Origin: a virus
Strand: one strand, 5' to 3'
IMG/VR virus record: IMGVR_UViG_3300049893_001349
Span: 1-46,752 of that record
DNA length: 46,752 nucleotides
The notes beneath the pieces are model-generated. The model was given only the letters and a program-made list of their open reading frames with translations, did not search any database and was not told the DNA's origin. Shown here one piece after another: positions 4,237 to 43,911 of the stretch (its first letter is position 1; each line of letters starts with the position of its first letter). The translations under genes were made by a program, and so were the position numbers.

Positions 4237-7200
4237 TGGCCGAAAGCGATAAAATAAAGCACTCCGAACTGATAGAAAAGGACGTGTTTAAGCCTACGAT
4301 TGAGGAGGCTATGGAGTTAATTAAAGTTTTGGATGGCATTACCGAAGGACTTAAAAAGATGTCCGAGGCGGCCACAAAACAAGCAAAAAAGAAGTCAACC
4401 ATACTAAGCGATCCGAAGCAAATAAAAGAGGCTTCCAAGGCTATTGCAGAAGCTGAAAAAGCCCGTTTGCAGTATATAAATGCCGAAATAGCCGCAACAA
4501 AGTTAAGAGCTAAAATACAGGAAGAGGCTAACAAAAAAGAAAAGGCTCAGAAAATAGAGATGACCGCCCAACAAAAGGCACAAGCGGCGGTTAATGCTAA
4601 GATAGCGAAACAGGAGCAAGACGAGGCGAACGCAATGGCCATACTGAACGATGAACGTTTAGGAACTGAAGCGAAGTTGACCGCTCAGGCTACTTTGTTG
4701 AGAATCGAAAGGGCAAAACTGAAAGACACGGATGCCAACTACCAGAGCGAACTTGAAAGGATAAACAAGCTACTCGATGAAAACACGGCTAAGCAAAAGC
4801 AAAACGGAGACCAGTTAACGAAACAACGTTTAAACGTCGGAAACTATACCGAATCAGTTCGTGAGGCAATTGATTCAAGCGAACTACTGGGCGATTCATT
4901 CGCCAACATGGGACGTGAAAGTAAAATTGCTGTTGCTGGGCTGAATAAGATTTACGGTGCGCTAATCAAAACTAGAGATCAGTTTAAAGAGTCACAAAAC
5001 GCAGGCGGTAAGTTTAAATCCGTTTTTGGTGGTGCGGCTGCGATTGGCGTTACCGCTTTGGCAGCTGGATTTGGTGCGGCGTTGGCCACGTCTCGAAAGA
5101 TGCAAGTACAAGCTGAAATCTTTGGGCGTACTTTAATGGAAGGATTTGGCCTGTTTGTTTCGGCGTTTGGGAATTATTTCGAAAACAAACTAGTGCCAGA
5201 GTTTAAACTCTTCATCCTTAACATACAAAAAGGCTTTGCATCATTGCCCGAAGTATTAGGTGGTAGTGAGCAAAAGGTAAAGGATATTTCGGCCGAAATG
5301 GAAACTTTGAATAAAAAGTCGGCCGAGTATAAGAATCTGTTTACTGAAATGCCTGAAAAGCTGAAACAAACGGCCAAAGATGTAGAGGAAATAGTCAAGA
5401 TACAGCAAAAGTTGATTGACAAAACGCAAGTTTATAGTCTTCAAATATCAAAACTAAACGCTCAATCCGAAATACAAAACGAGATAGCAAACAGCGAAAC
5501 AATTGCGCTCGAAGACCAAAACGCCGCAAACACAAAAGCACTTTCTCTTACAACTCAAAGAATTTCAAAAGAGCTTGAACTTGCTAAATTGAAACAAAAT
5601 GCGGCTGTTAAGGAAGTAAGGCTGGCTTTGCGAAAAGAAGGAGTTAACGACCAAATAAGCAACAAGGAAATAAAAAATCTTTCATTCATTAATAAGCTAA
5701 AAGAAGAAAACAAAATAAGCACCGACGTTCAGCAAAAGATAGCGGACGCAAGTAATGAGGTGTTGGCAAAACGCAATGAGCTTACTATTTCAAGAATGAA
5801 AAGCGAGCAACTTGCGGCTAAGATTAGTCAAGACCAAGCGAATAGGGATTTGGATATTATTATTGACGGGTACGATGCTTTAAAAACGGTTAATGAAAAG
5901 AAAATTGCAGACGAAACACAGACATTCGAAAAAAGACGGGCTATTCTTGAGGAAACTAAACAACTAGGAGACAAAGCACTTGCAGACGAACAAGCCGTGT
6001 TTGAAAAAGAAACAAAGAAAAGGATTGATTTGCAGTCCTTGGTAGATGAAAAGGACGCAAAAGTTTTGGCGCAAAGAATTAAAGATTTGCATGTTTCTGA
6101 CAATATAGCAGGCCGTATTTTGGAAGCTGTTAAGGAGCGCAGACTGGCAGTTCAAGACCTTGCAGACGCTGAAAGGGAATTGGCTAAATTGGAACGTGAA
6201 AAGAACGAACGGATTAGACAAAGCAAAGCGGCAATTGAGATTCTCAGAGAGGATACTAAACTCCTAAGAATAGAACGTGAACAATCTAAAGAGGAAGCAA
6301 AACAAGGGGCGGCCGATTTGTTCCGTAAAAAGCGATTGATTGAGCTAACTAAAGAACAAGAGGAAGCTGAAAGAAACAGGCTTGATATTCAATTAAAATT
6401 AGACACGGCCGAGGCGAACAAGATAGTTGAGGCAGACGAAAGGGCGCAAAAGTTGCGTGAGATTCACGCCAAATACCATGCGGACGTAACCAAGATGGAA
6501 GAGGATGCTGCCTTAGAACGTGAACGCATTAACAAACAAGCCTTTGATTCAGCAGTAGACTACGCCACAAAAACGACAAACGCCGTGTTGTCTGAATTCG
6601 GGAACGAGATAGACCGCCGCCAAGAACTTGCACAAACTGCAAACCAAATCGAGCAAAACAGGATTCAGCGAAACATTGACCAGCAAAGAGCTTTGGCCGA
6701 AAGAGGTCTTTCGAACAACTTAGCCGCCGAGGAAGCGAGAATACAGAAGGCCGAACAATCAAGATTGGAAGCCGAAAAGAAAGCACAAGAGGAGCGGGAA
6801 ATTATACAGTGGACAGAAGCTTACGTGAACGCATTGAATGCAAGACTAAAACAACCTGGGATAAATCCAAACCTTGCGCCACTTGAGGCTTTGAAAGATG
6901 TAATGCTAGGTAAGGCAATAGGTAAGACGCTTGTCCAATTTGCGGCCGATGGTAATGACGACGTGCAAGGGCCTGGAACTACTACAAGCGATTCAATCCC
7001 GTTCATGCTTTCGAAGCACGAGGGAGTAGTGAAGGCTTCAGCAAACATGGAAAACAGAGGTGTAGTGTCTAGTCTGAATGATGACACTTTTAAGCAGAAG
7101 TATATCCCAATCGAAGAGGCTCAGAATATTGGGGGCACATCTTATGACATAATAAGCCTTAACGCTTTGGCAAAACAAAACGGAAAAATTGTTTCCTTAT

Positions 7201-9401: not shown

Positions 9402-11817
9402 TCTAAGAAGCGAAAAATACGAACTTCAAACAACTGGAGCGGCCGAAAAAACACAGTTACAATCTTGTATTGGTGAATTTGTTACCGTTAAGATTGGGGT
9501 TCGTGCGGAAAAGGTCTATACAAGTTCAAGCGAAAAGCGTATTAATATCGGATTAGACTTCGAAGACTACCCTAACACGTTGGATGTAACGGGGTTAATT
9601 CGTGCGAATGGCTTTTTTGATGGGTTGACTATTGGTGATGTTGTTTTAGTGGGAAACATATACACCCCAGCAGACCCATTGAGCGGAACATACACAATAA
9701 CCGAGATTATAGATAGTAACACGGCACGAACCACTGGCGTTTGGACTGGTAAAGTTTTGGAGTTTGACGGATTAATTAAAGGATATGTGGCGGCCGTAAC
9801 AGGATTAAGTAAGGCGTCTATAATCGTAGCACTAAATGAGAGTGGAGAAAATAGCTTGGTAACAGAGCAAAAATGTGAGTTTGCACACAATCAATATGAT
9901 GGGTTTTATTCGTTACCTTCAAATTCTATTCCTGCAATTGGCTCCGAATGGGTTACTGGTGGTACTATAATAATAGGCGATGGGCTTAACGATTCAGGAA
10001 CGGCACAATATTTTACCATTAAATCTGAATTTGTTGTACATCCTGTTTATTTGGCTGGTCAACTTTCGGATTTACAGAATCTTGTAAAGCCTTCATATTG
10101 GCCAAATCTCAAGTTGCAATTTTCATCCGAATTTGGAACTCGTGAAACAGGCTTAAAAGAGTCTTTTGCGCTATCTCCACGGGGTAGGTTCGGTTGGTTT
10201 AACGAAAAGTATGATGGTTCGGAGGCTAAGTATTCGTTTTCGAGCTATGCAATAAACGATGGAACTAGTATCGTGTCGAGATTTCAATATAACAAAACAA
10301 ACACTGTTACCTTTAACGTTGCGACAACCTCGGGAACGTTCGCAACTGGTAATTACGTGGCTGTTATTTGTGTTTGTCGTTTGGCCGACAGTGAGGCACT
10401 ATATCGAAATACAAAAAAGTCACTACTGGATAACTTTTGTTTTGAAAATAAACGGGTAGTCTTAGGCAATCCAGTTTCAAACGGGGCTAACTTTGGGACT
10501 TCGTTGCAATTTATCAAGAATGCGGAATTTCAATATGTTTCTGGGGTTTCCGCTACTATTACGCTACAAATAGAATTAGGCTCTTATAGAGAAGATAGAT
10601 TTCGTGAAATGGATACGCCAAATTATGCCATATGGGTAATTTTGGAGCGTATTGATGAACTGATTTCTGATAAATCATGTCTGCTTTTACAAGTTGACAA
10701 GTTTGAAGAACGTTTGGCAGAAGTTGACTTGTTTGATGCCGAAACGGTGTTTATTGAACACCCTTTCGAAACGTCGGACAAAGGAGAGGATTCTTTAGCC
10801 GCTTTTCCAACAGACGACCTAGTAGCAAACACTCTTTTGACGCTTGATTATACAGGTCGCGAAACAGATGAAATAAAAATAATTTCGGTTACGCCTTCGA
10901 TTCGTCTGGTTAAGACAGGAGAGGATGACATAATACTAGATGAATATACACTTTCATGCGAAAACTTTCCGTTGGTTGGCTCTAGTCCTGCAATTCAGGA
11001 TATTGCGACCGTGGTGACTCGTTCGTTCAAACTAAATCAAGGTGTTCGGACTGATTTGGTGTTTGGGCGTGATTATAATAACGATTCTGGAAGTATTAAA
11101 GCATGGGCTTTGAACTTCCCATTTATTGTTAGGCACGAATACTGGATTAAGCTATTGCTAGATACTATTCCAAGCGATTTGTTTGATGTTGCCGAACCAA
11201 ATAAGGGTATAAATGAGTTTTGGCATAGGTATCAGACTGTTTCAGGATGGTCACTAAACTACAATTTAAACATAGTTTTCGAACAAAAGGGCGAACGTGC
11301 CGAACAAAATATCTTAAAGCCGTTCACTACAAATAACTACGGTGCTAATTCAGATTGGTCTACAACTTCGATAAAGTCCTATGAAATAGGCGGTTCTACT
11401 GCAATAGAATCTGGCGGTATTAAATATGCGTACGGAACAAAAGATTTAGAAGTACGTGCAAGTATTACACATCTTGGGGCGGTTCACCCAGACCTTGCAG
11501 GAGTAGAAATGGTACTTTGGGCGGAAGTGTACGAAAATGGAAGCGTTGCAACAATTACGCAAGCATCAACAGTTTACGATATAATCTCGGATTCTTGGTT
11601 TAAACCTTTGGATGGATATACGAAAGCGAAAAAAGAAAAGAACGTTGACGTATACACGATTAGCGCAATTTTAGATAGTTCGAAATTGCCGAAAAATGGA
11701 AAGATTACTTTGTACGCAAGAATTTACGAAACAAGTTCAATACCTTTTACGGCACGTATAACTAATGATTTGATAATCAGAGATTTAATGGACGGCAATT
11801 ATAGAATCATACAATAA
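9394..11817 (+). CDS. Large tail tip / baseplate protein
   Basis: Protein of 807 residues, beta-rich along its whole length and without long coiled coils or membrane segments. Segments such as FSSEFGTRETGLKESFALSPRG and LILDEYTLSC-type strands suggest successive beta-sandwich modules. It lies between the distal tail gene and the fibre genes and overlaps its downstream neighbour at ATAATGG. Probably a central baseplate or tail hub protein that carries the fibres. I do not recognise a named family. Confidence 0.6.
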   Translation: MLSLRSEKYELQTTGAAEKTQLQSCIGEFVTVKIGVRAEKVYTSSSEKRINIGLDFEDYPNTLDVTGLIRANGFFDGLTIGDVVLVGNIYTPADPLSGTYTITEIIDSNTARTTGVWTGKVLEFDGLIKGYVAAVTGLSKASIIVALNESGENSLVTEQKCEFAHNQYDGFYSLPSNSIPAIGSEWVTGGTIIIGDGLNDSGTAQYFTIKSEFVVHPVYLAGQLSDLQNLVKPSYWPNLKLQFSSEFGTRETGLKESFALSPRGRFGWFNEKYDGSEAKYSFSSYAINDGTSIVSRFQYNKTNTVTFNVATTSGTFATGNYVAVICVCRLADSEALYRNTKKSLLDNFCFENKRVVLGNPVSNGANFGTSLQFIKNAEFQYVSGVSATITLQIELGSYREDRFREMDTPNYAIWVILERIDELISDKSCLLLQVDKFEERLAEVDLFDAETVFIEHPFETSDKGEDSLAAFPTDDLVANTLLTLDYTGRETDEIKIISVTPSIRLVKTGEDDIILDEYTLSCENFPLVGSSPAIQDIATVVTRSFKLNQGVRTDLVFGRDYNNDSGSIKAWALNFPFIVRHEYWIKLLLDTIPSDLFDVAEPNKGINEFWHRYQTVSGWSLNYNLNIVFEQKGERAEQNILKPFTTNNYGANSDWSTTSIKSYEIGGSTAIESGGIKYAYGTKDLEVRASITHLGAVHPDLAGVEMVLWAEVYENGSVATITQASTVYDIISDSWFKPLDGYTKAKKEKNVDVYTISAILDSSKLPKNGKITLYARIYETSSIPFTARITNDLIIRDLMDGNYRIIQ

Positions 11818-32898: not shown

Positions 32899-33705
32899 AT
32901 GATTAGAGACGAGATAAGGCACGCTTTAGAATCGTGCAACGGTGTTAGGATTTGCCACATGGTTCAGCAAGGGCAAAAAGAACAAATAAAGCAAGAAATA
33001 GGCAAAGGAGTAACGTTTTATTGTGCGGCCAAAGGGTTCAATATGGACTCCAGAAAGGACGAGCTTAACGCCGTGACAATGGCCATATTTACGAGTCTAC
33101 GTACTGCTTTCGCTGGTTTGGCAATTGGAGAAATTAGCTTGATTTTCGACTACGCTCTGGGCGGTTCTCTTCCAAGTTGCGATAAGTATGTAATGACAGC
33201 TGATGCGTTTACAATCCCCGCAAAGGCTTACTACACCTCAAAACTACGGAAAGAAGTAACGGCCGATCTTCCAATAAGAAACGCCCTTCCAGAATATAAA
33301 AAACCTTTGGATGAAAACTTATCTGAGTCCGAAAAGCAGGCTAAAGGCAGGGAGTTTGCTCTTGAATTATATCGAAAGATGTACAATGCCTATTATTACA
33401 ACAAACATAAATCCGAAATAGCTGAGTTTGAATTCGGATCGCTTGTTTACGATAATTTGAAACGGGTAGGTAAAGTTGCAGTAACCAAAGAACACCTTGA
33501 ACAAGCCGCTGAATACGTAAACATGGAATTTAGGCAAACAAGGAATCCAGATCTCAAGCCAATCACAAAGATTGTCGAAGAAATGATGTTAAAAGGCATA
33601 GAGCAAATAAAAACGACATTCCTACGCAAAGAAGCCGAACGCCTATGTTTAAAAGAATATTTTGAAGAATTAATAAAAAAAGACAAGGCCAAAGCTTGTA
33701 AATAA
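32899..33705 (+). CDS. Protein of the recombination/replication operon, unknown
   Basis: Protein of 268 residues between the initiator-like gene and RecT. Mostly helical, with C18-x-C sites (CNGVRICHMVQQG), GGSLPSCDKYVMTADAFT in the middle, and a charged C-terminus (FEELIKKDKAKACK). The position suggests an ssDNA- or replication-associated factor. I recognise no family; it seems frequent in Bacteroidota phages with recT nearby. Confidence 0.6.
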   Translation: MIRDEIRHALESCNGVRICHMVQQGQKEQIKQEIGKGVTFYCAAKGFNMDSRKDELNAVTMAIFTSLRTAFAGLAIGEISLIFDYALGGSLPSCDKYVMTADAFTIPAKAYYTSKLRKEVTADLPIRNALPEYKKPLDENLSESEKQAKGREFALELYRKMYNAYYYNKHKSEIAEFEFGSLVYDNLKRVGKVAVTKEHLEQAAEYVNMEFRQTRNPDLKPITKIVEEMMLKGIEQIKTTFLRKEAERLCLKEYFEELIKKDKAKACK

Positions 33706-36752: not shown

Positions 36753-37033
36753 AACGACTGATTAAAATAGCACTTATGTTCTTGCTTAGAGCTGTGCTGT
36801 GGTTGTTGTGTAATTTGGTATCTAGAAAAATGAGCCACGAACTAGAACAAAAGCGTGAAAAGGCCAAAAAAGCATTAAAAGAAGCCTTTGGAGACGTTTT
36901 TAATTACTCTGACAATAGTTTGTTTGTTTTTCATAATAAACGTATTGTACGCTATTATTTCACAACGGAAACATACCAAGGGGCGGGGTTGAAAGGCAAA
37001 GGGATCGAAAATTTAATAAAAAGAAGCAAATGA
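36749..37033 (+). CDS. Small N-terminally anchored protein
   Basis: Protein of 94 residues. One membrane segment near the N-terminus (IKIALMFLLRAVLWLLCNLV), then a charged helix (QKREKAKKALKEAFGDVF) and a strand region. ATGA overlap on both ends. Unknown role. Confidence 0.65.
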   Translation: MKRLIKIALMFLLRAVLWLLCNLVSRKMSHELEQKREKAKKALKEAFGDVFNYSDNSLFVFHNKRIVRYYFTTETYQGAGLKGKGIENLIKRSK

Positions 37034-37272: not shown

Positions 37273-37787
37273 TTTAGCAAAAAGTTTGAAAAGTAAAAAC
37301 TTCATGTTAGTTTTGCTTCATCAAAAGTGCTTCGGTATCCTCCAGTCTCCTTGTTTAGCCACTAGTAAGAAAGGTAACGTTGCTACAAGTGCTTTTAAAG
37401 AACTTAAACACTTCACGCCTGCCATTTCGCCCCCTGCGTTAGTTGACTCAGAATGAGGGTAGCGGGATGGTAAGGAGGGAGTGAAAAAAGACATAAAATA
37501 CTGTTCCGAGCGGTATGAAGATAAAAAGGAGTAAAACCCTTTCAGCTTAGGAGAAATCCAAAATAAGCCCAAGATGCTCGGAACATTTTGGGCTTTGCTG
37601 TTTTTATGCCCACTAAGCGATTAGAAACTAAACTTTGGTACAAATCCATTGGAACGAGCAAAAGCCTCTTAGAAGGCGCAAAACATAGTTTTCTGAGGGG
37701 CTTTTTCTTTTTCTGTTTTGTTTTCTTACGCTTCTTTTCTTTTGTGTTTTTCTTTTGGTTCAGTGTTGAATTTAAACAACTAAAAAT
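37273..37787 (+). ncRNA. Possible structured RNA / attenuator region
   Basis: About 515 bases with no convincing gene and with GC-richer blocks than the surrounding phage DNA (37420-37480, CGCCCCCTGCG and GGTAGCGGGATGG). Two mutually exclusive pairings: TGTTCCGAGC (37502-37511) with GCTCGGAACA (37576-37585), 10 bp perfect; and AAGCCCAA (37565-37572) with TTGGGCTT (37588-37595). The 3' arm of the first pairing lies in the loop of the second, like an antiterminator/terminator switch. A second terminator follows at 37661. It may be a small RNA, or a leader that controls 37788 onward. Confidence 0.45.
37661..37717 (+). terminator. Terminator with long stem
   Basis: AAAGCCTCTTAGAA pairs along 14 positions with TTCTGAGGGGCTTT (two G-T wobbles), loop of 16 bases, followed by TTCTTTTTC. 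It closes the structured region. The 70 bases after it are very T-rich on the plus strand. Confidence 0.7.
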
Positions 37788-37970
37788 ATGGAATGGCAAA
37801 ACAAGGTTATAACAAAAGACGGGCAAACAGTAATAGTCTCGGAGCGAAAAATCGAAGTCGGAGACGTTGTGTGCGAAAGGCTTACAGATGGTAGGTTTGA
37901 GCTATTTGCAATAAACAACCAAAACGACATAGACACTGAGAATCAAAGAGTTGTGAAAGAAATTTTATAA
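37788..37970 (+). CDS. Small protein, unknown
   Basis: Protein of 60 residues, MEWQNKVITKDGQTVIVSER, a compact beta fold (KIEVGDVVCERLTDGRFELF). Its leader TAAACAACTAAAAATATG is A-rich as in other genes. A second small gene follows one base after its stop. Confidence 0.65.
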   Translation: MEWQNKVITKDGQTVIVSERKIEVGDVVCERLTDGRFELFAINNQNDIDTENQRVVKEIL

Positions 37971-37971
37971 C

Positions 37972-38250
37972 ATGGCAAAGCAACTAAACATCGAAATAAA
38001 CAAGTGCGCTGAATGTCCTTATTGCTTATACGATAGTGCATTTGAAGAATACTTTTGTAAAAAATTAACATGGGTATTTATCGAAAATAGAGACGAAGTG
38101 CATCCACTTTGCCCGCTTGAAGAAAAACAAACTTTATTCACCGAAAGCGAACTATCCAAAGCATGGGACGAAGGATATCACGCAAAAGTAGACGAGATCA
38201 AAGGCGAACGTTCTGTAAAATTCAGCGAGTTTCTTGAAAGACTAAAATAA
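37972..38250 (+). CDS. Cys-rich small protein, probable zinc binding
   Basis: Protein of 92 residues. The N-terminal part holds C12, C15, C18 (KCAECPYCLYDSAFEEYFCK) with C29 and C48 (HPLCPL), a zinc-ribbon-like pattern known from small phage proteins. The C-terminus is helical (ESELSKAWDEGYHAKVDEIK). One base after the previous stop. Confidence 0.7.
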   Translation: MAKQLNIEINKCAECPYCLYDSAFEEYFCKKLTWVFIENRDEVHPLCPLEEKQTLFTESELSKAWDEGYHAKVDEIKGERSVKFSEFLERLK

Positions 38251-38275
38251 AAGTTTGTAATTAATAAAAAAGTAC

Positions 38276-38387: not shown

Positions 38388-38518
38388 TGTCATGTGGCGG
38401 AACTGGAAGACGCTAAAAAAGATAAAGGTATAGATTAGACAAGGTTGAGGAGCTAATGTTCCAATATGGACTAGGACAATATTACTATACTGTACAGGTT
38501 CGAATCCTGTCATGACAA
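38388..38518 (+). tRNA. Degenerate tRNA-Leu-like gene
   Basis: A 7-bp acceptor stem pairs TGTCATG (38388-38394) with CATGACA (38511-38517), discriminator A. A T arm ACAGG-TTCGAAT-CCTGT precedes it. A three-bp class II D stem GCG-GAACTGGAAGA-CGC with the G18G19 pair resembles tRNA-Leu. Between D and T arms there are about 81 bases, where about 50 are expected, and no proper anticodon stem-loop. It may be a decayed phage tRNA, one with an insertion, or a remodelled RNA. Confidence 0.5.
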
Positions 38519-38535
38519 CTAAACAATAAAACAAA

Positions 38536-39012
38536 ATGAAATTAGAATTAAAACACATCGCTCCTTATTTGCCTTATAAGCTAAAATTTCATCAAGGATG
38601 GAGCTTTGAAAGAGGTATTGAAATAACTCTTATTGAATTAGATATACATGGTATGGCTAATTTTAGCAATCTTAATGGGTTATGGGATGTTCGTGACTTA
38701 CGACCAATACTAAGACCTCTTTCAGACCTAACAAAAGAAATTGAAGTAAATGGAGAAAAGTTTGTACCTATTGATGATTTATCTAAAGAATTTTTATGTC
38801 CATTTTATAAGTTTGGGGAACATGAAACTGGATGGGTTGGGTTTGTTGATACTTCATTTGGAAGTACTAAAAATAACATGCCTATTTACATGGATAACGA
38901 AATAATGGGAGAATGTCCTTGTTTTATTTATCAAAAGTTAATTGAATGGAATTTCGATGTTTTTGGACTTATTGACGCAGGTTTGGCTATTGATATTAAT
39001 ACGCTAAAATAA
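38536..39012 (+). CDS. Conserved-looking phage protein, unknown
   Basis: Protein of 158 residues. The start MKLELKHIAPYLPYKLKFHQ and the segment LNGLWDVRDLRPILRPLSDL are a pattern I know from several Bacteroidota phage and prophage hypothetical proteins. It overlaps no neighbour; leader AAACAATAAAACAAAATG. Role unknown. Confidence 0.75.
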   Translation: MKLELKHIAPYLPYKLKFHQGWSFERGIEITLIELDIHGMANFSNLNGLWDVRDLRPILRPLSDLTKEIEVNGEKFVPIDDLSKEFLCPFYKFGEHETGWVGFVDTSFGSTKNNMPIYMDNEIMGECPCFIYQKLIEWNFDVFGLIDAGLAIDINTLK

Positions 39013-39028
39013 AAAATGAAGAACGTGT

Positions 39029-39169
39029 ATGCTTGACTACACAAAAGGCTCAATAATGCTATTTCTTGCGCTTGTGGCGTGTTGCTATTGGTATGACTGG
39101 CGTCTTGCTTTGATAGTTTACCTTGGGTCTAGTGGAACGGCCTACATAATAAAAAGCTGGAAAAGTTAG
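39029..39169 (+). CDS. Small membrane protein (46 residues)
   Basis: MLDYTKGSIMLFLALVACCY, then WYDWRLALIVYLGSSGTAYI and IKSWKS: two short hydrophobic segments. An upstream six-codon frame (MKNVYA) overlaps its start and may couple its translation. Missed by length limits. Confidence 0.5.
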   Translation: MLDYTKGSIMLFLALVACCYWYDWRLALIVYLGSSGTAYIIKSWKS

Positions 39170-39189
39170 CTTTGTTAACAAAAAAGTAT

Positions 39190-39197
39190 TAATATTG
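39190..39197 (+). promoter_or_regulatory. Promoter TAATATTG
   Basis: Preceded by TTTGTTAACAAAAAAGTAT, the recurring upstream element. One base off consensus (TAnnATTG). Leader AAAAAACAAAGTTTATG for the gene at 39218. Confidence 0.65.
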
Positions 39198-39217
39198 TGC
39201 GCTAAAAAACAAAGTTT

Positions 39218-39385
39218 ATGAAAAACATCTCAGTAATTTGTGCAATCGCATTGTTTTTATTTACAGCCTATCACTCGTTTCAGGAATGGCGTATTAGTTA
39301 CTACTCGGACAACATTATGATGGTAACGTTTACCGCCTGCCTTGCAATCGCATGTGTCATATTTGCATGCAGAAAGCAGTTTTAA
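39218..39385 (+). CDS. Small membrane protein (55 residues)
   Basis: MKNISVICAIALFLFTAYHS, FQEWRISYYSDNIMMVTFTA, CLAIACVIFACRKQF: one N-terminal and one C-terminal membrane span. It lies directly before the 39386 membrane protein (stop and start adjoin), so the two may work together. Confidence 0.65.
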   Translation: MKNISVICAIALFLFTAYHSFQEWRISYYSDNIMMVTFTACLAIACVIFACRKQF

Positions 39386-39838
39386 ATGGCTTGGTTTATA
39401 GTAATCAATCTAGTAACGGTGGCCTTTTGCGCTATGTTTAAGGCCGCTAAAGATGTTATTTCGCACAAGTTTGATATATCCATTTGGAGAAACAAACAAA
39501 CGCTATTTTACGACCCTAAATACTCGTGGCAAAACAAGTATAAGGATTACCCAAAAGACAAAAGAGAGTTATTTTGGGGTTCTACTAGGTGGTTTGTTTG
39601 GATTACTGACGCTTGGCATTTCTTCGATATGGTTAAATTGAGTAACTGGCAGCTACTTAGTTTGATGAACATGATTCTAGTTTGGCAAAACATAATCGAC
39701 TTGAACAAGAACGGATATGTTACTGCATTGGTCCTGATACTATACATTCCACTAGTCAAGATTTGGCACGGTATAGTATTTGAGTACTATTACAAAAATG
39801 TATTTATAGACGAAAAGTATAAGGATAAACAACATTAA
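39386..39838 (+). CDS. Membrane protein with DUF-like central motif
   Basis: Protein of 150 residues. N-terminal membrane segment (WFIVINLVTVAFCAMFKAA), a motif of aromatic and basic residues (WRNKQTLFYDPKYSWQNKYK, then FWGSTRWFVWITDAWHFFDM) and a second hydrophobic region (VTALVLILYIPLVKIWHGIV). Similar proteins occur in many Bacteroidota phages; function unknown. Confidence 0.75.
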   Translation: MAWFIVINLVTVAFCAMFKAAKDVISHKFDISIWRNKQTLFYDPKYSWQNKYKDYPKDKRELFWGSTRWFVWITDAWHFFDMVKLSNWQLLSLMNMILVWQNIIDLNKNGYVTALVLILYIPLVKIWHGIVFEYYYKNVFIDEKYKDKQH

Positions 39839-39849
39839 CAAAAAAATCG

Positions 39850-39857
39850 TAAATTCG
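39850..39857 (+). promoter_or_regulatory. Putative late promoter TAAATTCG
   Basis: TTAACAAAAAAATCG then TAAATTCG, one base off consensus, 13 bases before the first gene of the packaging operon at 39871. Weak but well placed. Confidence 0.5.
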
Positions 39858-39870
39858 CTCAAAAAAGAGC

Positions 39871-40791
39871 ATGAACGGGCAATGTATACGCCAACACTTC
39901 ACGATAGCAGCGGCAAAGACCGAAACAGTAGATAGTGTTATCTCCCCAATTGACACACAACAATGCTGTTATCAGTTAGGCGTATATGCCTCGACATTAA
40001 GCACAGATGAACTCAAAAACGACAAGTCTAGCTTCATTTTCTTCTTTTCTCAGTTATATTCTGGGGTAAGTCTAACCTTACAGAAATCAGTAAACGGAAC
40101 ATATACCGACCTAACTAGCCTTAACAGTAACACATACGGAACTTTTAAGGCTTTCGGCTTTTTCACAAACAAATTCAGCGAAAAGGCAATAGGATATCAA
40201 CTAAACTGGAGAAATATCCTCTTAATCCACGAAACAGGCGACTATCGTGTAAAATGCACCGCAACCCATGCAATAGACGGTGCGCAAACGTTCTACTCCT
40301 TCGAATACTGCCTAAACGAGTTTTACGAACACCTAGCAGACAACTCAATCCGCTTTGAATGGAAACAAAACGGACAAATCGGAGACGTAGCAAACGACGC
40401 AAAACAAAACGACTACGGATCACTAGACTGGTATTGTCAACTAAGACTAGCAAACGCTTTTATCGGATTTCCTAGTGCAACATTCGAAACCGAATACGTA
40501 CGATACCAGACAGGTCAACAGGTCAAAATATCTGACGGACAAAATGAAGAAATAACCTGCACCATCCAGAACACACCGGCGGAAATATTGCGATACGTTC
40601 AAGTAAATATGCTAATGGGTGACGAAATCCAAGCTACAAACTACGATAGTCGTAACCCTCACAGCTTTGTAAAAAAACGAATACACAAGTCGGGAGACTT
40701 TAAACCACGTTGGGACAGATACAGCAAGAATGGAAGCGTTGATTTGACGTTCATTCCTGAATTCAACAACCAAAAACATAAACGGGAATAA
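39871..40791 (+). CDS. Structural-module protein upstream of terminase
   Basis: Protein of 306 residues, aromatic- and cysteine-containing (CIRQHFTIAAAKTETVDSVI; FKAFGFFTNKFSEKAIGYQL; SIRFEWKQNGQIGDVAND), beta-rich, ending in a basic tail (FNNQKHKRE). First gene of the packaging block. The DNA of this gene is unusually rich in A and C and poor in T on the plus strand compared with its neighbours. Could be a virion protein or a packaging-associated factor. Confidence 0.55.
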   Translation: MNGQCIRQHFTIAAAKTETVDSVISPIDTQQCCYQLGVYASTLSTDELKNDKSSFIFFFSQLYSGVSLTLQKSVNGTYTDLTSLNSNTYGTFKAFGFFTNKFSEKAIGYQLNWRNILLIHETGDYRVKCTATHAIDGAQTFYSFEYCLNEFYEHLADNSIRFEWKQNGQIGDVANDAKQNDYGSLDWYCQLRLANAFIGFPSATFETEYVRYQTGQQVKISDGQNEEITCTIQNTPAEILRYVQVNMLMGDEIQATNYDSRNPHSFVKKRIHKSGDFKPRWDRYSKNGSVDLTFIPEFNNQKHKRE

Positions 40792-40793
40792 CT

Positions 40794-41273
40794 ATGGGAG
40801 CGCCTAAAGGAAATAACTACTGGCAATTCAGAGGTAAACACGGAACAAACTTTTCATATACTCCAGAAGATTTATGGAACGAAGCCGTTAAATATTTTGA
40901 ATGGATTAGTGAAAAGACTTGGATAAAAAAGGAAGCCATTAAGTCTGGAGACATGGCAGGGACATTAATTGATATACCGACTAGCACGCCAATGTCCGTG
41001 GAATCATTCTGTCTTTTTGCTGATATATCAACACAAACATTCAGAAATTACGAAAGTAATGAGAGTTCGTATAAAGATTTTTTTGAAGTCTCAACACGTA
41101 TACGCCAAATTATAGAATCACAGCAGTTTGAAGGGGCTACTGTAGGGGCTTATAACCCTAACATAATAGCTCGTAAACTTGGATTAGTAGATAAGTCCGA
41201 AAACTCAACTAAAAACGAAGTAACGATGGTTTGGAAAGAAACCAAAAATTACAACAATGGAGCTAACAATTAA
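40794..41273 (+). CDS. Small terminase subunit
   Basis: Protein of 159 residues. TPEDLWNEAVKYFEWISEKT and MSVESFCLFADISTQTFRNY (a helix-turn-helix near residues 65-90) match small terminase proteins of phages of Bacteroidota; GAYNPNIIARKLGLVDKSE is the typical oligomerisation/C-terminal part. Recognises viral DNA and feeds it to the large subunit. Overlaps terL by 17 bases. Confidence 0.88.
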   Translation: MGAPKGNNYWQFRGKHGTNFSYTPEDLWNEAVKYFEWISEKTWIKKEAIKSGDMAGTLIDIPTSTPMSVESFCLFADISTQTFRNYESNESSYKDFFEVSTRIRQIIESQQFEGATVGAYNPNIIARKLGLVDKSENSTKNEVTMVWKETKNYNNGANN

Positions 41274-42540
41274 ACAAACCATTGCACTAGATTACGCCGA
41301 AGACAAAGTGACCTCTGAAATTATATTTGGGGGCGCTGCTGGCGGTGGTAAATCTGCATTGGGTTGTTATTGGGTGTTAAAGAATTGTTTCAAATACGCT
41401 GGATCACGTTGGTTAATAGGCCGTGCAAAGCTCAAAACGTTGAAAGAAACGACGTTGAACACGTTTTTTGAGATTTGTAAAATACAGGGAATAAGTGCCG
41501 ATATGTACGTGTACAATCAGCAAAGCGGAACGATTCGATTTAACAACGGTAGCGAGATACTGCTGAAAGACCTGTTTTATTACCCATCAGACCCAAATTT
41601 TGATGAACTAGGTTCTTTGGAAATAACAGGGGCGTTTATTGATGAAATAAACCAAATAACCGAAAAGGCCAAACAAATAGTAATGAGCCGTATACGTTAT
41701 AAGCTCGATTGGTTCGGCCTAATTCCTAAACTATTTGGATCCTGCAACCCTGCAAAGAACTGGGTTTATACCCAATTCTACGAACCATACAAGAAAGGCA
41801 CATTAATAGAAAGACGAAAGTTTGTTCAAGCGTTAGCCACTGACAATCCACATCTTTCAGCGCACTATATCGAAAACTTAAAAATGCTTGATGAACCAAG
41901 CAAGCAAAGGCTTCTTTATGGTAACTGGGATTATGATGACAATATAGACGCTTTGATTGATTTTGATTCAACAAACGACTACTTTACGAATGAACACGTA
42001 AAACCGACAGGAAGGAAGTGCATAACAGCCGATATTGCACGTAAAGGCCGTGATACTACGGTTGTAAGGGTATGGGATGGATTTGTAGTAATAGAAAGGC
42101 GTTCACTTAAAGTGTCATTGGTAAATGAATCTGTGTATTTGATTCGTTCTTTGGCTACAAAATACTCAATACCAATGAGTTCGGTTGTAGTTGATGAAGA
42201 CGGCGTGGGAGGTGGTGTACGTGATTACCTTCGATGCTATGGATTTGTGAATAATTCTAAGCCAATAGGCCGAACGAATTATACAAATCTTAAATCACAA
42301 TGTAGTTTTATTATGGCCAATCTAATCAAGGAAAAGAAAGTATATGAGGTTTGTACATCCGAGGACATTAAAGCAAGGGTTCGCCGTGAACTTGGTGCCG
42401 TTAGACAGGCAAACATAGACAATGACGGCAAAGTAGGAATACGAAGCAAAGAAGATATGAAAAATGAACTAGGATCCTCTCCCGACGAATGGGATTCGAT
42501 TATGATGCGAGCGTTCTTTGAACTAGGACAACGATACTAA
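41257..42540 (+). CDS. Large terminase subunit
   Basis: Protein of 427 residues. Walker A GGAAGGGKSA at residues 25-34, Walker B GAFIDE at about 125-130, and coupling residues in GSCNPAKNW at about 160-175. The C-terminal RNase H-like nuclease shows CITADIARKGRDTTVV (D at about 258), VVVDEDGVGGGVRD (about 310) and DEWDSIMMR near the end. ATPase motor plus headful or site-specific nuclease of DNA packaging. Confidence 0.96.
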   Translation: MELTIKQTIALDYAEDKVTSEIIFGGAAGGGKSALGCYWVLKNCFKYAGSRWLIGRAKLKTLKETTLNTFFEICKIQGISADMYVYNQQSGTIRFNNGSEILLKDLFYYPSDPNFDELGSLEITGAFIDEINQITEKAKQIVMSRIRYKLDWFGLIPKLFGSCNPAKNWVYTQFYEPYKKGTLIERRKFVQALATDNPHLSAHYIENLKMLDEPSKQRLLYGNWDYDDNIDALIDFDSTNDYFTNEHVKPTGRKCITADIARKGRDTTVVRVWDGFVVIERRSLKVSLVNESVYLIRSLATKYSIPMSSVVVDEDGVGGGVRDYLRCYGFVNNSKPIGRTNYTNLKSQCSFIMANLIKEKKVYEVCTSEDIKARVRRELGAVRQANIDNDGKVGIRSKEDMKNELGSSPDEWDSIMMRAFFELGQRY

Positions 42541-42626
42541 ATTGCACTATTCTACTGAATCTTGACTACAACCCCGTGTTTATTCTTTAAAACATTGTAT
42601 TATTCTAATAATACCGATAAATAAAC

Positions 42627-42634
42627 TAAATTTG
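42627..42634 (+). promoter_or_regulatory. Promoter TAAATTTG before the portal gene
   Basis: A full -7 match, about 23 bases before the ATG at 42658. A TTG lies further upstream than usual (42596). Suggests separate expression of portal and head genes after a 117-base gap behind the terminase. Confidence 0.65.
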
Positions 42635-42657
42635 TACCTTTGCAAAAAACATTTGGC

Positions 42658-43911
42658 ATGTCAACTAAGCAAATAGAACTGGCTAAAACCAACAAAAATA
42701 TTTCAATACTCGACAGGGTTAAGTCTTTCTTTGGGATGTCCATGCCTTACATTGGAGACGAAACAGAATCGTACGGCACATGGCAAACAATGATTTCGAG
42801 CCACTCATTTAACCGAGTGAATAATGCAACATTGACTGAGCTGTATTACTGTCAAAATCCAGTTGTATTTTCTATTGTGACCCAAATCATAAACGCCTCT
42901 AAGAACATTAAGCTAGTGCCGTATCGTAACGGAAAGCCGTACAAATCGGGAGTTTTAAACTTGGATTCAGAACGAGCTTTGTTTAATCTTTGCACCACTG
43001 GAACGGTAGTGTTTTGGAAACGTCCAGTAATCGGGTTTGGGTATGACTTGGAGGTAATTGATACTGTTAACTTAACTGAGACCTTTGTAAATGGAGTATT
43101 TGAGTACCGTTACCAAGAACGGATGAAGCAAATAAAGATTGCCGAAAGCGAATTGATTTTCATTCGAATGTTCGAAAATCCAGCGCAAAACACAAACTTT
43201 GGGCTTTCGCCGTTAATGGCTGCAATCATGCCGAACGAGTCCCTTCGAGAAATGTACCGATGCGATACTTCTTTGCTAAAAAACAAAGGAGGGGATATTG
43301 CGATTTCGAACGGAACAGACCAGCCAATGATAGGAGAAGAAGACTCTTTTGATATTGCACTGCAAAAGAAAATAGCAGGCTCTAGGAAATATGGCAAAGC
43401 CGTAGTGACAGAGGCCAAAATCGAAGTACACCAACTTGGGCGAACTGCAAAGGAATTGGCACTTTGGGACGGGTACAAAGTTAAGATTCGAGATATTTGT
43501 AACGTGTACGCTTTCCCGCCTCCTTTAGCTGGAGACCCAGACAGTGTTCAATACTCAAGCACTTTGGTTGCGGAACGTTGTTTGTTTACAAATTGTACGA
43601 TGCCATTGCTTTCTAGGATATTTAATAACAAGCAACTAGAGGCTGAGCTAGGATATACAGTGTACCTAGACAGTTCGGACGTAGAAGCCTTGCAAGAATC
43701 ACAGAAAGAAAAGGCAGATAAAGCGGCGGTGAACATGAATGCCGTACTTACGCTTAATAGTTCGGTTCAGAGCGGACAAATCACTAAGGATATTGCTGTA
43801 ATGATTCTAGTAAACGAATTCGGATACGACGAACAAGAGGCTCAGTCTTTAATCAAAGAACCAAGTCAGCAAAACAACGTACAAACGCAAGAAACTCAAA
43901 ATATTGCGTAG
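42658..43911 (+). CDS. Portal protein
   Basis: I use the ATG at 42658 (MSTKQIELAKTNKNISILDR, 417 residues), not a TTG 18 bases upstream. HK97-type portal features: LTELYYCQNPVVFSIVTQII near residues 55-75, a VNLTETFVNGVFEYRYQE clip region, LSPLMAAIMPNESLREMYRC near 185, FPPPLAGDPDSVQYSSTLVA near 295, and a C-terminal basic/acidic tail. Forms the dodecameric head vertex for DNA entry. Confidence 0.93.
   Translation: MSTKQIELAKTNKNISILDRVKSFFGMSMPYIGDETESYGTWQTMISSHSFNRVNNATLTELYYCQNPVVFSIVTQIINASKNIKLVPYRNGKPYKSGVLNLDSERALFNLCTTGTVVFWKRPVIGFGYDLEVIDTVNLTETFVNGVFEYRYQERMKQIKIAESELIFIRMFENPAQNTNFGLSPLMAAIMPNESLREMYRCDTSLLKNKGGDIAISNGTDQPMIGEEDSFDIALQKKIAGSRKYGKAVVTEAKIEVHQLGRTAKELALWDGYKVKIRDICNVYAFPPPLAGDPDSVQYSSTLVAERCLFTNCTMPLLSRIFNNKQLEAELGYTVYLDSSDVEALQESQKEKADKAAVNMNAVLTLNSSVQSGQITKDIAVMILVNEFGYDEQEAQSLIKEPSQQNNVQTQETQNIA

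Follow-up and report, generated by a model that had tools for sequence, protein, structure and literature searches.

We propose that a noncoding block of phage DNA encodes a leader RNA with its own promoter, which probably acts as a self-terminating attenuator whose 5′ hairpin is locked to the terminator through a kissing loop. Complementary loop pairs of this kind recur in the leaders of Flavobacteria phages, suggesting a family of RNA switches that has not been described. The structure is strongly supported; its function we infer from sequence.

A predicted leader RNA with complementary hairpin loops

The window (the whole stretch analyzed, 46,752 nucleotides) comes from a 46.7-kb virus sequence. 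We assign it to a Flavobacteriia-type phage because its terminase is nearest to those of Cellulophaga phage phi10:1 (54.6%) and Flavobacterium phage 11b (53.1%). The block of interest (37273–37720) is flanked on one side by small genes that follow a recT-containing operon and on the other by the packaging genes. It opens with a promoter of the Bacteroidetes type, for which the consensus is TTG / TAnnTTTG; eight such sites are present on the plus strand of the window, compared with a mean of 1.6 in shuffles. The RNA is predicted to start near 37320. Near-identical promoter cassettes (TTGTA..TAATAAAAAAG.A.TA..TTTG) also precede several operons, at 33696, 35613, and 38255. On the plus strand, the block folds better than its dinucleotide shuffles (z = −3.0; 0/100), while the minus strand does not (z = −0.13). 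The features of the block and the genes that follow it are listed in Table 1.

Table 1. Predicted features of the leader block and the two genes behind it, in window coordinates.
Feature	Position	Strand	Sequence or remark
Promoter, Bacteroidetes-type	37286–37315	+	TTG-N19-TAGTTTTG; very start of the noncoding stretch
P1, upstream hairpin	37323–37396	+	AAAAGTGCTT...AAGTGCTTTT; fold
P2, long upstream hairpin	37409–37485	+	Fold
H1, hairpin	37498–37516	+	ATACTG(UUCCGAG)CGGTAT; 7-nt loop at 37504–37510, complementary to the terminator loop
H2, weak middle hairpin	37524–37543	+	AAAGG...CCTTT; fold
H3, terminator T1	37565–37606	+	AAGCCCAAGATG(CUCGGAA)CATTTTGGGCTT and T-rich tail; terminator scan, fold
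T2, second terminator	37659–37712	+	18-bp stem, T-rich 3′ side; −24.4 kcal/mol
First gene 3′ of the terminators	37788–37970	+	60 aa, no assigned function
Second gene	37972–38250	+	92 aa, no assigned function; next promoter after it at 38255

An initial annotation of this DNA had described a block richer in GC than the surrounding DNA, closed by a strong terminator and containing two pairings that cannot form together. There are in fact two terminators. The GC content is unremarkable (0.40 versus 0.379 for the whole window; 33% of 448-nt windows are equally rich). Both pairings exist: TGTTCCGAGC (37502–37511) is complementary to GCTCGGAACA (37576–37585) at 10 of 10 positions, and AAGCCCAA/TTGGGCTT forms part of the 12-bp stem of T1 (37565–37576 with 37584–37595). 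Their supposed incompatibility does not hold, however. The H1 loop, UUCCGAG, is exactly complementary to the T1 loop, CUCGGAA (37577–37583; 7/7 nt), and because the two 7-nt loops match perfectly, both stems and the loop-loop helix are compatible. H1 and T1 can thus form a kissing loop with both stems closed.

Energy calculations indicate what such a complex would cost. The T1 hairpin (37565–37595) has a stem probability of ~0.99 in the fold ensemble. H1 alone favors an 8-bp stem with a 3-nt loop over the form with the 7-nt loop (−4.8 versus −2.7 kcal/mol), and the kiss, with an energy of about −9 kcal/mol when computed as a plain duplex, would have to compensate for opening the 7-nt loop. A kissing-loop statistic on minimum-energy folds missed the window pair, since H1 has only a 3-nt loop in that fold. 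A further complementarity, between part of the T2 loop (GCAAAAC) and GTTTTGC at 37310, was dismissed, as 37310 lies within the promoter box and before the predicted RNA start.

The bare 10-nt inverted repeat is at chance level, occurring in 468 of 2000 shuffles of the block (23%), as it might if an ordinary terminator stood beside a coincidental repeat. Two hairpins with complementary loops of at least 7 nt, the second of them a terminator, arise in 2 of 2000 shuffles.

Searches for known matches to the block gave little. Against Rfam (4227 families), the window and the tested relatives stay below the gathering threshold, and permissive thresholds return nothing credible; BLAST of the block against phages and plasmids is equally empty of credible matches. 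A P2-derived pattern, TAGTTGACTCAGAATGAGGGTAG, has no matches. We found no ligand-binding domain and no Rfam aptamer match; P1 and P2, which are not seen in the relatives, have no counterparts for comparison. Used as bait, the protein at 37972 recovers only L002/L003, where the block is missing, and the protein at 37030 recovers none. Readings of the block as a tRNA, a retron, a repeat template, or a toxin-antitoxin system were rejected: ARAGORN finds no tRNA, no reverse transcriptase was noticed by eye among the open reading frames, and the neighbors scanned against PHROGs include no toxin-like family.

L003 is 96% identical to the window over 39005–43742 and unrelated upstream of 37769. The block is therefore likely to be replaceable, and its absence from this close relative fits module exchange, which stops short of the mobile RNA that had been suggested. 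The junction itself is sharp (window 37769 / L003 422), with ~90 to 96% identity downstream. A tRNA-Leu–like remnant is present at 38388–38516 of the window, with the acceptor GTCATG/CATGAC, D- and T-arms that appear intact, and a longer insert in place of the middle. ARAGORN reports no tRNA there, and it does report a tRNA-Leu (anticodon aag) at the near-identical place in L003 (1041–1128).

Loop pairs in related phage leaders

A first relative is L052, the single match in a scan of 2.9 million viral contigs for both 10-mers. Its loops are the same and its stems differ: TGATTG and CAATTA enclose UUCCGAG, and AAACCCTAATTG and CAGTTAGGGTTT enclose CUCGGAA, followed by a T-rich stretch. As in the window, the two stems comprise 6 and 12 pairs. 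A comparison by eye shows double-sided changes in 6 of the 18 stem pairs and single-sided changes in 2, and none is broken. The covariation that the initial annotation had proposed to look for in relatives is thus present. In L052, a promoter box stands at the family-typical distance before H1, and a further box precedes the next gene. In looser control scans, both stems are found in none of ~135 other loci that carry both 9-mers, among the matches listed from viral and bacterial contigs; the bacterial loci with exact loops among these listed matches all resembled chance.

Members with other loop sequences were found in several ways. A descriptor scan that required complementary loops but no fixed sequence was run over phage loci fetched via a neighboring gene. 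It found GCAUCAC/GUGAUGC in L004 and L008, CCAUCAC/GUGAUGG in L013, CCUUCAC/GUGAAGG in L031, and GCACUAC/GUAGUGC in L046. These five align well and have complete kissing pairs, 4 of 7 changed on both sides, in members that were preselected by complementarity. A covariance model (R1) was built from core members with the kissing pairs left out. It found L018 (62 bits; CCACUAC/GUAGUGG) independently of loop complementarity, and it weakly matched Cellulophaga phage Nekkels_1, which has 6 to 7 nt of loop complementarity. In 295 genomes of the class of G002, R1 returned generic terminators only, without kissing. The syntenic intergenic region of Cellulophaga phi10:1, located by synteny and not by loop complementarity, contains GUACGAC/GUCGUAC.

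BLAST with the phi10:1 region, matching a downstream motif only and thus again independent of the loops, led to Baltic Flavobacterium phages whose leaders have an 8-nt pair; about 46 records of these phages match that leader. Among close relatives, there are three alleles, GUGAGACG/CGUCUCAC, GUGAGAAG/CUUCUCAC, and GUGGAACG/CGUUCCAC, each of which keeps 8 of 8 pairs. The alleles sit in DNA that is 85 to 93% identical, with 3 of 8 kissing pairs altered on both sides and 100% kept. Between the filifjonk and snusmum types, substitutions are more frequent in the loops (4/16) than elsewhere (5/85; P = 0.03), an excess that is only suggestive, being a single allelic comparison.

We also searched 59 sequences for TAnnTTT[G/A] boxes with a hairpin and a terminator behind them and took all such candidates (n = 194). 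Loop complementarity of at least 7 nt is present in 23 of these candidates, compared with a mean of 3.35 and a maximum of 10 when loops were re-paired between candidates (200 trials); block shuffles gave 0 and 2. Chance probably explains a few of these 23, such as L020, L040, and the minus-strand cases in L023 and L190. Further members include Flavobacterium phage 11b (L051), Polaribacter phage P12002L (L191), where the leader precedes a primosomal gene, and L007, L014, L033, L034, L041 (10 nt), and L045; some are uncultured contigs. L046 has a second leader, the two kissing leaders lying 3.4 kb apart (6380–6480 and 9742–9845), and the first of them carries the filifjonk9-1 loop pair with its halves swapped between H1 and terminator. 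Against a coincidental repeat stand the covarying stems of L052, the compensatory alleles in cultured phages, and this excess over re-paired controls. We regard coincidence as very unlikely indeed, and for the family as a whole it is already contradicted.

Where loop boundaries were inspected in the relatives, the complementary stretch is confined to the loops and leaves the stems out, as expected if the kissing complex and the terminator exist side by side rather than if an antiterminator took the terminator's place. The initial annotation had envisaged the latter, a classical attenuator or riboswitch with mutually exclusive helices, in which TGTTCCGAGC/GCTCGGAACA would prevent the terminator stem from forming. 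The window gives this idea some room: its complementarity spans 10 nt, including the pairs that close the two loops, and forcing this helix costs only 3.2 kcal/mol relative to the best fold. Nonetheless, a pseudoknot-free ensemble assigns the long helix a probability of ~0.01, the loops are just large enough to kiss, and there is no aptamer-like conserved core. We thus consider such a switch quite unlikely. The attenuator-like part of the earlier proposal, a regulatory RNA with a promoter, structured leader, terminator, and gene, agrees with what we find.

The window departs from the rest of the family in several ways. It has an H1 and a terminator hairpin with loops complementary over at least 7 nt, and a next gene with no promoter box between T1 and its ATG. 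However, no box lies 9 to 14 nt before H1, the promoter being ~180 nt upstream instead of about 12; P1 and P2 intervene, and a second terminator follows. The two small downstream genes are not replication genes, and the distance from T1 to the ATG at 37788 (~180 nt, with no TAnnTTTG box in the box search) exceeds that in relatives. R1 does not report H1-H3 of the window, only the T2 region at E = 4.3, and it scores L052 at only 27.1 bits (E = 0.14). As promoter distance, R1, and downstream genes differ, membership rests on architecture and on L052. We favor regarding the window as an atypical, long member of the family or, together with L052, as a near cousin.

Leader layout and possible modes of action

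Typical members have a promoter box, TAnnTTT[G/A], 9 to 14 nt before H1 and a terminator ~75 to 130 nt later. A middle hairpin is present in relatives too, judging the alignment by eye. The next ATG usually follows 6 to 53 nt past the terminator. Nearly all members, L052 excepted, have no box in between, in a search that covers boxes of the TAnnTTTG type; the genes that follow could use a different kind of promoter. Where a downstream gene was identified in the relatives, it mostly belongs to an operon for a primase, a helicase, or another protein of DNA metabolism: DUF3987/Prim-Pol primases follow the leaders of L004 and L013, a BT4734-like protein that of L031, a ResIII helicase that of L008, and a helicase-methylase that of L046. 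Toprim primase/helicases stand behind the phi10:1 and filifjonk9-1 leaders, and helicases behind those of mumin and snusmum.

Other conserved elements occur in the 5′ untranslated regions of these phages. A small hairpin with the motif AATTTAATAGTT..CGGTAATCTTAAAACCG lies between terminator and ATG in Cellulophaga and Flavobacterium phages (L190:10339–10379, L225:2975–3016, and L046 at about 6520–6560); crAss-like and Bacteroides phage records also matched. In L010 (4041–4140) and L036 (2279–2370), another conserved hairpin, of the form stem-AAGGAAGTA..TTTACAGCA-stem, lies between a promoter and the first gene.

The promoter, the terminator, and the closely following gene without a box of its own make an attenuator role the most likely one. 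RNA made from the leader promoter would form the early hairpin H1 and then the intrinsic-terminator hairpin H3. Seven to eight bases of the H1 loop would pair with the H3 loop and so tie the 5′ portion of the RNA to the terminator. The downstream genes would then be expressed only by terminator read-through. How readily the terminator forms, or how firmly it is held, would be set by the kissing pair, until a factor from phage or host, or a copy of the RNA acting in trans, intervenes. Transcription, termination in the cell, control of the downstream genes, and the direction of the effect are all points that we infer.

The same architecture could instead yield an independent small RNA, a stable, terminated, end-locked product that acts on host or phage RNAs or on a protein, with the downstream genes transcribed otherwise. 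Its own box, compact size, strong terminator, and ends joined by the kiss are all compatible with this, as is the further promoter box before the next gene in L052. Yet a next ATG within ~50 nt, with no box between in nearly all members, is odd for a free-standing gene, and no conserved unpaired, seed-like segment is evident in the alignments. An independent small RNA is thus possible, if doubtful.

The loops might also work between molecules. Terminated leaders would accumulate during infection and pair with leaders still being transcribed, from the phage itself or from one that co-infects the cell, so that the expression of replication genes is tuned or stopped, and the loop would serve as a phage-specific identity tag. 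The loops differ between near-identical phages yet remain self-complementary, and the halves are swapped in L046; both fit such pairing and neither proves it. We hold this to be unlikely. Should it be true, the tag would resemble a plasmid incompatibility RNA. The ColE1 RNA I/RNA II and CopA/CopT systems have complementary loops of ~7 nt whose sequence diverges while pairing is kept. Their partners come from opposite strands, however, whereas both loops here lie in one transcript.

Known systems and significance

Returning to the attenuator, both halves of the idea have precedents: control of the kind seen in phage P4 and loop docking of the kind seen in the cobalamin riboswitch and in other riboswitches. 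In P4, premature termination induced by the CI RNA controls replication genes, as described with reference to the original P4 studies (PMC4825925). The seqA-seqC leader of P4 likewise precedes replication genes and ties short RNA-RNA pairing to premature termination. P4 relies on an antisense RNA that is processed and has two target segments, whereas in the present leader the 5′ hairpin pairs with the terminator hairpin of the same molecule. We found no homology between the P4 CI-RNA leader and the phage leader described here. In the cobalamin riboswitch, the L5-L13 contact lets a leader loop kiss the loop of a downstream expression-platform hairpin, thereby controlling the gene (PMC10907184). 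The present leader differs in that it has no aptamer or ligand, an H1 of 4 to 8 bp, an intrinsic terminator as partner, and a freely variable kissing sequence.

Other phage RNAs share single features with this leader. IsrK of prophage Gifsy-1 also derives a short terminated RNA and a read-through phage-gene mRNA from one promoter, but it has another structure and host group and acts in trans on translation of the long form; the passages on IsrK mention no loop pairing of a 5′ hairpin with the terminator (PMC4825925). The phage RNAs ROOL and GOLLD, which often lie close to tRNA genes, also have kissing loops that are conserved (PMC12286853); in the window, the tRNA-like remnant lies 0.8 kb downstream. 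Unlike the leader, these are large, many-helix RNAs represented in Rfam. Attenuator-like phage leader RNAs are thus a known kind, and the kissing-terminator form appears to be new, with a strong structural and a weaker functional case. We found no description of such a leader in the open literature.

If confirmed, the leaders would constitute an undescribed RNA family in Flavobacteriia phages, mostly placed before the replication operon, in a group where little is known of phage regulation. Cultured hosts, together with phages that carry natural compensatory alleles, make the role of the kissing loop directly testable. The family may also yield a simple RNA part, in which a terminator is addressed through a short loop pair whose sequence can be changed at will.
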